A stretch of DNA of 21,830 nucleotides. Origin: an uncultured Prevotellaceae bacterium. Its GTDB lineage: Bacteria; Bacteroidota; Bacteroidia; Bacteroidales; Bacteroidaceae. Positions 15,490 through 17,539 of this stretch are shown in pieces (position 1 is the stretch's first letter; each line of letters opens with the position of its first letter). The translations under genes and the position numbers were made by a program. The stretch lies in contig OMXX01000062.1 in assembly GCA_900315105.1 (NCBI GenBank), positions 1 to 21,830 of the forward strand, in the 5' to 3' direction. The notes under the pieces are model-generated. The model was given only the letters and a program-made list of their open reading frames with translations. It was not told the DNA's origin and searched no databases.

Positions 15490-15741
15490 TTATTTCTGTA
15501 TAAATTTCTTGTAGAGTTTCCAACCGAGTAGTGCGCCGTCGATAAGTCCCATGCTTGATGAAGCCAATGCTACGAGGCGCTGGGTTGGAGTCTTTGGCGT
15601 TGGAGCCTTCTTCGGATGGAAGATGGAATTCCAAGTAGCCTTAATCTCTTGTTCGCTGCGCTGGATATCCTTGTTTAATTGTGCCTTACGTGCGCGGATT
15701 GCCAGGAGCGACTGATACTTTAGCGGTTCTTCTTCTGTCAT
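15490..15741 (-). CDS. Small protein of unknown function, third gene of the YtxH/holin-like cassette
   Basis: 83 aa. Its ATG overlaps the stop of the holin-like gene by 4 bp (ATGA), so translation is coupled. Residues 1-45 are charged and helical (IRARKAQLNKDIQRSEQEI), residues 46-54 are Pro/Lys/Thr-rich, and the C-terminal part (LVALASSSMGLIDGALLGWKLY) is a weakly hydrophobic helix that may lie on or in the membrane. I do not recognise a family. The layout of charged helix plus short hydrophobic tail recalls the DUF3618-type partners found next to YtxH and holin-X genes in other phyla, but I see no proof of homology. Confidence 0.85.
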   Translation of the reverse strand: MTEEEPLKYQSLLAIRARKAQLNKDIQRSEQEIKATWNSIFHPKKAPTPKTPTQRLVALASSSMGLIDGALLGWKLYKKFIQK

Positions 15742-16094
15742 ACCTCTTCTAATAAGATAGTGGCAAGGAACTTGACTAACGGACGTTCAATCCAAGCCTT
15801 CTTGCGCATGTAAACAATTATCAATAATAATAGATAGAACCCGGCAACGCAGAGGAAACCGAGAGCATCGGAATCGAACAGGTCGCCAAGTGCGTATGCC
15901 ACAGCGAAGGAAGCGCAGATGGCAACGGCACAGACTATCAATAAGAGCACGAAACCGAGGATGAGGGCCGAGATAATCTTCACCGTCTTCTCCGTGGCAT
16001 CGAGCTTTAGCATTTCGAGCTTCAGTCCGCCATATTGCTTCAGTTGCTCTACAAGCTGCGCTATTGTCTCTATGTTTTTATCGCTGGAAAACAT
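15738..16094 (-). CDS. Holin-X-like membrane protein (phage holin superfamily III type)
   Basis: 118 aa with an amphipathic N-terminal helix (IETIAQLVEQLKQYGGLKLE) followed by two membrane segments (about 39-68 and 79-98) and a basic loop (MRKKAWIERP). The pattern, a short leader helix with two hydrophobic segments separated by a short acidic turn (DLFDSDAL), fits the holin-X/PF07332-like proteins. These are chromosomal membrane proteins in most bacteria and are not phage lysis genes here: no lysin or phage gene is nearby. It lies 11 bp downstream of the YtxH-like gene and overlaps the next gene by 4 bp, forming a tight three-gene unit. Role probably linked to envelope stress or membrane organisation (inference). 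Confidence 0.85.
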   Translation of the reverse strand: MFSSDKNIETIAQLVEQLKQYGGLKLEMLKLDATEKTVKIISALILGFVLLLIVCAVAICASFAVAYALGDLFDSDALGFLCVAGFYLLLLIIVYMRKKAWIERPLVKFLATILLEEV

Positions 16095-16105: not shown

Positions 16106-16315
16106 TTATGCAATGTCTGCGTCCTGAACGTCGTCAATGAGTTCGTCAACCTGCTTGCGAGTAAGCTTGATGTCGTGCTTGTCGCAGAACTTCTTTACAG
16201 CGTCAGAGAGTTTATTACGTGTGTCTTCACCTGCTTCTGGAGCGAGAAGAATACCGAGAGCTGCGCCTGCAACGGCTCCGCCGAGGAATGCGCTTATGTA
16301 ACCTAATGCTTTCAT
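16106..16315 (-). CDS. YtxH-like small membrane protein
   Basis: 69 aa: a Gly/Ala-rich membrane segment (YISAFLGGAVAGAALGILLA, residues 6-25) directly followed by PEAGEDTRNKLSDAVKKF, the hallmark of YtxH-domain proteins (LLAPKSGKETR...). The C-terminal part is charged and helical (LTRKQVDELIDDVQD). YtxH proteins are often stress-induced in other bacteria; here it heads a three-gene cassette with a holin-like protein and a small unknown. The predicted mRNA leader of about 350 nt contains the four 71-bp repeats, an unusual arrangement for so small a gene. Confidence 0.92.
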   Translation of the reverse strand: MKALGYISAFLGGAVAGAALGILLAPEAGEDTRNKLSDAVKKFCDKHDIKLTRKQVDELIDDVQDADIA

Positions 16316-16380
16316 AATTGATTCTTTTTTTAATGTTAGTTACTAATAAATTTAATACTTTAATTGATTTCAGTTTATGT

Positions 16381-16664
16381 GTGCTTTTCTGCACGAAATT
16401 TATAGTGCTTGTCTGTCTCAAAAAGAGCAGGTGCACGTTTCATATTTATGAGTGCTTTTTCGCACGAAATAAATAGTGCTTGTCTGTCTCAAAAAAGACT
16501 GGCGCACGTTTCATAGTTATGAGTGCTTTTTCGCACGAAATAAATAGTGCTTGTCTGTCTCAAAAAGAGCAGGTGCACGTTTCATATTTATGAGTGCTTC
16601 TTCGCACGAAATAAATAGTGCATGTCTGTCTCAAAAAGAGCAGGTGCACGTTTCATATTTATGA
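16381..16664. repeat. Four tandem copies of a 71-bp repeat in the YtxH cassette leader
   Basis: Copies start at 16381, 16452, 16523 and 16594, each exactly 71 bp, and a fifth begins (GTGC) at 16665 before the sequence diverges into the promoter. Copies 2-4 differ at only a few positions; copy 2 has GACTGGCGCAC where the others have GAGCAGGTGCAC. Each unit contains a hairpin (GTGC, 6 nt, GCAC) and, on the minus strand, a larger stem GTGC...GCAC enclosing CTG/CAG and CTC/GAG pairs around a T-rich loop. The rightmost copy abuts a leftward promoter, so the array is probably transcribed. Confidence 0.92.
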
Positions 16665-16667
16665 GTG

Positions 16668-16697
16668 CAAAGATAAGAATTCTTTTCTGAAAAGCAA
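16668..16697 (-). promoter_or_regulatory. Promoter of the YtxH/holin-like cassette at the repeat array edge
   Basis: Minus-strand TTG (16695-16697), 19-bp spacer, TATCTTTG (16668-16675), then CACTC. Full consensus match. The predicted start falls at about 16664, the boundary of the 71-bp array. The gap between this promoter and the SPOR gene promoter (16698-16810) is A/T-rich and holds only a direct repeat of GAAAAGCAATTTTT. Confidence 0.75.
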
Positions 16698-16810
16698 TTT
16701 TTTTTGTGTTAAAAACCCTAAATCTCCATTTTTTAGTGGGGAAAAGCAATTTTTACGTCTAATTTAACAAACTTTATGTGCTTTTCTTTCTCGTGTTCGC
16801 AGTTTTTTCG

Positions 16811-16870: not shown

Positions 16871-17539
16871 ATGAAGAAGATAGTCATTAATGTCGCAGCA
16901 CTTTTTGCTGTCGTTGTATTCGCAAGTTGTGGCGCCTCTAAGGAAAGCGCTTATCGTAAGGCATATGAAAAAGCTAAGGCACAGGAAGAAATTGTAGAGC
17001 AGCAGCCACAGTATGCTCAGCAGCCACAGTATGCTCAGCAGCCTCAGTACCAACAGCAGCCTGTTCAGTACCAACAGCCTGTCCAGTATCAGCAGCAGCC
17101 TCAGTACCAACAGCAGCCTGTTCAGTACCAGCAGCAGCCTCAGTATCAGCAGCAGCCTCAGTACCAACAGCAGCCTGTTCAGTACCAGCAGCAGCCACAG
17201 CAGCAGTATGTTCAGCAGCAGCCTCAGTATCAGCAGCAGGTTGTACAGCAGCCTGCTAATGACAATGTGCCTGTTCGTCAGGAGCGCCTCACAATCGTGA
17301 ACGGTGGTGGCCTCAAGGCTTTCTCTGTTGTAGTAGGTTCTTTCGGTGTAAAGGCTAACGCAGAAGGCTTGCAGCGTACACTTGTAAACTCTGGCTATTC
17401 AGCACAGGTTGCATACAATCAGGATCGTAACATGTACCGTGTTATCGCTTCTACATACGACTCAAAGCAGGACGCTATCATAAGCCGTGACAACCTGAGT
17501 GCAAACTACCCAGGTGCATGGTTGCTCTATAACCAATAA
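16871..17539 (+). CDS. SPOR-domain lipoprotein with Gln/Pro/Tyr-rich repeats
   Basis: 222 aa. Lipobox FASC gives Cys20. After a short basic helix (21-42) comes a low-complexity stretch (44-128) made of PQYQQQ and PVQYQQ repeats, then a C-terminal SPOR domain (about 149-222: AFSVVVGSFGVKANAEGL, MYRVIASTYDSKQDA). SPOR domains bind peptidoglycan stripped of stem peptides, usually at division sites, so this protein probably links the outer membrane to septal or remodelled wall across a flexible spacer. The repeat tract is encoded by near-identical 18-21-bp units and may vary in length between strains. The stop lies 3 bp before ruvX; it is likely the first gene of the operon with ruvX and def. Confidence 0.93.
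   Translation: MKKIVINVAALFAVVVFASCGASKESAYRKAYEKAKAQEEIVEQQPQYAQQPQYAQQPQYQQQPVQYQQPVQYQQQPQYQQQPVQYQQQPQYQQQPQYQQQPVQYQQQPQQQYVQQQPQYQQQVVQQPANDNVPVRQERLTIVNGGGLKAFSVVVGSFGVKANAEGLQRTLVNSGYSAQVAYNQDRNMYRVIASTYDSKQDAIISRDNLSANYPGAWLLYNQ

Follow-up and report, generated by a model that had tools for sequence, protein, structure and literature searches.

Four tandem copies of a 71-bp sequence separate a leftward promoter from a gene for a small YtxH-like protein in the DNA of an uncultured Prevotellaceae bacterium. They raise the question of whether the repeat is a leader private to that gene or one instance of something more widespread. A first-pass annotation had taken the former view and assigned the repeat to a membrane-stress cassette. 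In our effort to answer this question, we compared the locus within the window (the whole stretch of DNA analysed, 21,830 nt) with the nearest genome and with more distant relatives.

The array and its locus

The annotated repeat was confirmed by TRF, which gives a tandem array at 16374-16668 with a period of 71, 4.2 copies, 92% matches and a score of 490. All of its elements are read on the minus strand, where units start at GCAC at positions 16668, 16597, 16526 and 16455, at a spacing of exactly 71, and are followed by a stub. The copy at the promoter (16598-16668) scores 93 bits at 16593-16671 with the covariance model R1 described below, and the third, divergent copy (16456-16526) scores 77 bits at 16451-16529; the second (16527-16597) and fourth (16385-16455) are placed by TRF and by the spacing of the starts. 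A partial fifth unit, GCACACATAAA, recognized from the sequence and TRF, occupies 16374-16384 and forms the joint to the rest of the leader (16316-16373), which by eye is like the array-free leader of the related locus L026 and is taken as native.

The leftward promoter is likewise present on the minus strand. It consists of a -7 box, TATCTTTG, at 16668-16675 and a -33-like TTG of sigma-A type at 16695-16697, 19 nt upstream of the box. The TTTG of the box is both the joint with the repeat unit and one half of the hairpin base. In the excerpted Flavobacterium promoter map (PMC9723704), TAnnTTTG lies at -12 to -5, and by analogy the YtxH transcript is predicted to start near 16663, which agrees with the earlier placement of the start at the array edge. 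The leader precedes three minus-strand genes: the YtxH-like protein of 69 aa (16106-16315; PF12732, E 1.8e-12), a holin-superfamily-like protein of 118 aa (15738-16094; Phage_holin_3_6, PF07332, E 2.1e-8), and an 83-aa ORF (15490-15741) with no Pfam match. The divergent neighbour at 16871-17539 is a lipoprotein-like ORF with a Gln/Pro-rich stretch coded by tandem repeats of 57 and 18-21 bp, and the make-up of this stretch differs in relatives. The array itself had no match at E 1e-5 among 50,697 phage and 72,556 plasmid records. The core pattern of the unit had no exact match in viral contigs, and a phage or plasmid origin was rejected.

To compare the same locus in relatives, 34 loci were found via the second gene of the cassette, and the seven nearest were examined. 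Two copies plus part of a third are present in L022, three in L023 and two in L024. L025-L028 have no array and retain the promoter TATCTTTGCACTC (TATCTTTGCACTT in L027). The records derive from uncultured Prevotellaceae or Bacteroidales, and several carry RUG names, which we take to indicate the rumen. By position the structured repeat is a 5′ leader, as had been proposed, and its copy number differs between relatives (2, 2 plus part, 3 and 4); the array is missing from somewhat more distant ones. Because other assemblies carry two to three copies at the same place, the possibility of an assembly artefact is argued against.

Copies elsewhere and their position at promoters

Searching the nearest genome, G001 (the source of L024), at the DNA level gave 20 matches, including the array's own locus. 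The covariance model R1 was built from 20 units and, with scoring limited to 150 candidates in each genome, yielded at E<=0.001 78 copies in G001, 40 in G002, 87 in G257, 70 in G183, 67 in G096 and 43 in G136. The six genomes most compared are 79-86% complete, and two have 5-7% contamination. Under stricter filters and with 16 candidates scored per genome, 16 of 299 genomes of the genus had an R1 match (5 of 131 good assemblies). Across the order a match was found in 1 of 247 genomes, which was G001 itself. As far as these samples go, the unit is a lineage-specific family. Weak R1 matches in tandem occur in G002, five at a 74-bp spacing (C45:28528-28900) and three at about 71 (C35:59177-59398), both possibly diverged arrays, and G296 has a longer unit form of about 95 bp (L092, L106).

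This dispersal bears directly on two accounts that confine the repeat to the YtxH locus. A plain slippage array specific to this locus would agree with the two to four copies seen between relatives, but it is refuted by the presence of the unit at 60 further G001 sites examined and is practically untenable. An array private to the YtxH cassette is ruled out on the same ground: the 60 other sites are mostly at promoters of unrelated genes and relatives' orthologues often lack the unit, so the annotated assignment to a membrane-stress gene is not supported. The annotation had itself named random scatter without any link to the cassette as an outcome that would count against it. The copies are indeed scattered, but at -7 boxes and not at random.

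The position of the unit was established on a site set comprising 60 G001 stretches (sites on contigs C33 and C20 left out), the window, and L001, which corresponds in G001 to the window site. R1 gave 74 non-overlapping matches in these 62 sources. The first copy starts within TAnnTTTG in 57 of the 62 (55 with a narrower search), and none of the 11 later copies listed does so. A TTG ending 18-22 nt before the box is present in 33 of the 57; two control spacings gave 4 and 6. The five sources without a -7 box are L111, L117 (at a contig end), L136 (TTTA for TTTG), L157 and L160. In 53 of 61 sources, one being too short, the longest downstream ORF is on the same strand. Two of the eight exceptions nevertheless precede a gene on the same strand, YtxH in the window and an acyl-carrier type protein in L111; in L144, L150, L151, L155, L160 and L163 the same-strand ORF is shorter or absent and there is no convincing same-strand gene. 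No tRNA gene was found near ten sites checked, which included these six.

A strict 5′-leader position, mostly on the strand of a gene, is also a point in favour of a cis-regulatory RNA leader, riboswitch-like or protein-binding, that serves a regulon and whose copies spread by duplication and were kept because the RNA works. The functions of the downstream genes argue against such a regulon. Pfam matches among 17 downstream proteins include FtsZ, an acyl-carrier type protein, leucyl-tRNA synthetase (LeuRS), HisG, an HMGL-like synthase (LeuA by eye), aldolase, pyruvate kinase, ATP synthase alpha/beta, Lon, NqrA, CarB, RlmN, an ABC transporter, MatE, a XerD-like recombinase and a TonB plug protein; the protein downstream of L156 had no Pfam match. 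To judge from their sequences, the genes are unrelated and often essential, with no common pathway.

Other leader features were noted. At four loci 5′ of leuA (L199, L201, L211 and L213), a short Leu/Ile-rich ORF was seen by eye to be followed by a hairpin and a T run, resembling a leucine attenuator. Simple repeats follow the element in several leaders, GGTGTTAGGTGTTGG-like in L117, L132, L151, L163 and L164 and AAAGTCTAAAGGCTAAGG-like in L124, L133 and L140; since such repeats recur in element-bearing leaders, 5′ regions seem to gather short repeats.

Filled and empty alleles at orthologous promoters

Six genomes were screened for the starts of 23 genes, and orthologous leaders from at least one of G257, G183, G096 and G136 were obtained for 21 of them (L127 and L159, with few weak matches, were left out). 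When up to 330 nt ahead of the anchor were searched with a profile, the element was missing in at least one relative for 18 of the 21 genes. For the remaining three (L115, L139 and L156), all relatives found carry it, and a conserved link to orthologous genes, as expected of a cis-regulatory RNA, is thus confined to 3 of 21. Near relatives' orthologues often lack the element yet have the promoter, a further point against the regulon account, which we consider quite improbable overall.

Many of the filled and empty alleles align poorly 3′ of the promoter and some do so throughout; clean joints are available for LeuRS, MatE, XerD, HisG and L147. At MatE, four relatives read ..TAACTTTG followed directly by native T(A/G)CC.., and G001 reads ..TAACTTTG, then the element ending ..ATACTTTG, then TACC... 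At LeuRS, G001 and G257 carry the element, and the empty leader of G183 agrees at 73 of 75 aligned bases. At L147, 84 of 86 bases equal those of G257. The aldolase gene, which has an identical N-terminal stretch in five genomes, is filled in G001 and G257 and by eye empty in G183, G136 and G096. At MatE, CarB, FtsZ and L165, G001 is the only one of the compared genomes to have the element, for which one gain is a simpler account than several losses. The empty alleles of aldolase, L142 and L152 may be deletions between direct repeats.

In the clean pairs, the bases 5′ of TTTG, including the -33 region, are common to filled and empty alleles, and therefore the promoter belongs to the host. The element is joined after TTTG or a shorter similar sequence, and a second TTTG is often present at its right end. 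The direct repeats at these joints measure about 3 to 14 nt by eye. Because their length varies, there is no classical target duplication, and the fixed-length duplication that marks a MITE of a DDE transposon is not seen.

Dispersed copies that are present or absent at orthologous sites are what define a non-autonomous mobile repeat. We put the probability at roughly 0.8 that the array arose by tandem amplification of a hairpin element of about 75 bp, dispersed, mobile and non-autonomous, that joins its host at the -7 box and transcription start. The differences between filled and empty alleles would then be insertions. The element would join at the TTTG of the sigma-A -7 box, in the direction of transcription, and would leave the -33/-7 promoter in place, so that it becomes the first transcribed segment, a structured 5′ leader. 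Tandem growth could result if the GCACTC(NNAAAT) repeats at the unit's two ends recombined or, alternatively, from nested insertion into the TTTG of an earlier copy.

Hairpin structure, possible modes of movement and known repeats

The predicted 349-nt leader folds better than 100 of 100 shuffles (z -4.5), and its centroid has two hairpins per copy, in line with the first-pass annotation; this two-hairpin form of the whole leader may exist in the RNA. A single unit is predicted to form one long hairpin when its TTTG flank is included (z -4.1); once the bases that precede the predicted start are removed, z is -1.9, with 7 of 200 shuffles as good. The consensus hairpin spans 76 positions (TTTGCAC..NNAAAT..GTGC..CAGCC / GGCTG..GCAC..ATTTNN..GTGCGAA) and contains conserved unpaired stretches.

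Covariation agrees with the long hairpin. In alignment A1, 92.0% of cells are paired (slid controls, 28-52%) and the covariation score is 0.252. There, 39 cells are changed on both sides versus 12.9 +/- 3.2 in shuffles, a comparison in which A1 includes several orthologous or tandem units and the shuffles ignore relatedness. In alignment A2, which was fitted to the model, 94.0% are paired and double changes number 232 versus 58.8 +/- 5.6. A three-hairpin form was tried and rejected: it gave 89.2% paired, a score of 0.231 and 17 double changes, mostly in the inner hairpin shared by both forms. Among helices specific to one form, two-sided changes affect 1 of 8 pairs in the three-hairpin form versus 7 of 17 in the long form. 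Sequence comparison establishes the dispersal of the unit, its -7-box position, its covarying structure and its presence or absence at orthologous promoters.

The outer helix is informative as to which nucleic acid is folded. Of 59 rows beginning TTTG or TTTA, 16 differ from GCAC, and the other arm matches in 10 of these (GTAC/GTAC, GCAT/ATGC six times, GCAA/TTGC, GCCC/GGGC and ACAC/GTGT). The other six have a mismatch or gaps, and some GCAC rows have a changed right arm. Outer-helix paired cells number 215 versus a shuffle maximum of 209. The covarying structure in the transcribed strand, the conserved unpaired stretches and the good folding of the whole leader are all properties of a regulatory RNA. 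However, the outer-helix bases, which covary in 10 of 16 variant rows, occupy about -5 to -2 in first copies. This places them before the predicted start, so that they would not be part of the RNA of a single-copy site. Therefore RNA alone should not keep this pairing at single-copy sites. It seems that the folded DNA strand matters, a suggestion that depends on the predicted start and on the model-fitted alignment.

We also considered whether the target is copied into the right arm on insertion. As a general rule this was rejected: most units keep TTC opposite TC in the right arm, a mismatch not expected from fresh copying, and the native start of LeuRS does not match the arm of the element there. 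In 58 of the 62 sites (L001, L117, L157 and L160 left out), matches between an arm and its own locus average 12.7 versus a permutation maximum of 11.2, with the own locus best or tied best in just 13 of 58. In L133, L156 and L164 the two arms are exact inverse copies of each other for 13-14 bases, and these units may be newly formed or corrected palindromes.

If the element is mobile, its moving form would be a folded single strand joined after TTTG. The non-template strand of a -7 box is single-stranded in the open complex, which would explain the box as a target. Specifically, the hairpin might attach to the non-template strand of the melted box, after its TTTG, with host bases of the -7 box and start forming one arm of its basal stem, and so install a removable, amplifiable, structured 5′ leader on dozens of genes, some of them essential, without breaking their promoters. 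We regard this open-complex targeting as possible but rather doubtful.

Two kinds of enzyme could be envisaged for such a mobile element. A tentative candidate is a Y1 (HUH) transposase of the IS200/IS605 or RAYT kind, moving single-stranded DNA and cutting after TTTG on the exposed non-template strand. The clean-pair joints after TTTG or a shorter like sequence, the adjoining hairpin, the frequent TTTG at the right end and the lack of a fixed duplication are consistent with this, and small Y1 proteins are encoded in G001, G183 and G096. On the other hand, none of 22 loci around Y1_Tnp matches, taken with about 1.5 kb of flank either way where contigs were long enough, carries the element, an absence that weighs little because the assemblies are incomplete. 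Furthermore, G257, the genome richest in copies, has no Y1_Tnp match, G002 has just the long type, and the element ends are unlike those of GTAG-tagged REPs. Y1_Tnp matches occur in 15 of 24 genomes tested, in carriers and non-carriers alike. An unlikely agent is a tyrosine recombinase acting at a CTnDOT-like core site, GTAnnTTTGC, which is similar to the -7 box. This sequence is found in 26 of 57 sites and TTTGC direct repeats at some joints, but its G or C is missing in 31 of 57, no recombinase is linked to the element, and open-licence PubMed Central papers yielded nothing to the point on this core site.

Several known repeats share features with the unit. Correia/NEMIS elements and other bacterial MITEs are small mobile repeats that can be co-transcribed and fold in mRNA, as the unit might. 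The unit differs in having no fixed target duplication, just a 7-bp terminal inverted match (TTTGCAC/GTGCGAA) and a tie to the -7 box. Pneumococcal BOX elements are modular, with a variable number of tandem inner units. They resemble the unit as small interspersed repeats with variable tandem units, and are set apart by description, since the unit has a single unit type and a strict promoter position. The integron attC core (RYYYAAC / GTTRRRY) was not seen by eye at the ends of the unit consensus.

REP, BIME and REPIN sequences with RAYTs, as described in excerpts of two papers (PMC3733652, PMC6006769), are likewise short non-coding hairpin repeats with many intergenic copies that are thought to move as single strands. 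REPs are reported there mainly downstream of coding regions, as 20-40 bp palindromes with an unpaired GTAG or CGTC at one end (PMC3733652). CGTC REPs are also described without a linked transposase, and the Bacteroidetes subclass 2.6 goes with atypical structures (PMC3733652, PMC6006769). Against these excerpted descriptions, the unit is about 75 bp (76 consensus positions, ends TTTGCAC / GTGCGAA), has no GTAG or CGTC end tag, lies head-to-tail in tandem at promoters and has no Y1 gene beside any copy (0 of 22 loci). Another lineage-specific intergenic repeat of Prevotella is PINSR of Prevotella intermedia, with 177 and 184 copies in two strains; as excerpted, it is 188 bp long, with no terminal inverted repeats and no promoter position described (PMC4755523). 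Identity with PINSR was rejected by size and description alone.

Rfam gave no match in the window at the gathering score, and on 551 bases it gave four matches, all below the gathering score (E 1.2 to 5). No described family with promoter-start targeting or a matching repeat was found in open-licence PubMed Central papers, which bears out the earlier remark that no such element was known. The unit seems to be a new family, new in its promoter-start target, whose nearest kinds are REPs/RAYTs, MITEs, BOX and PINSR.

The interpretation of the YtxH array shifts from that of a private leader to that of a family of probably mobile hairpin repeats at promoters. Near-base-precise landing at the predicted starts of housekeeping genes would show how promoters can take up spreading mobile DNA and stay intact, and each affected mRNA would receive a similar 5′ hairpin. 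Close relatives provide natural pairs of filled and empty alleles in which the effect of a 5′ hairpin on expression could be gauged, and the same pairs offer a route to ask whether promoter melting supplies single-stranded targets for transposition.
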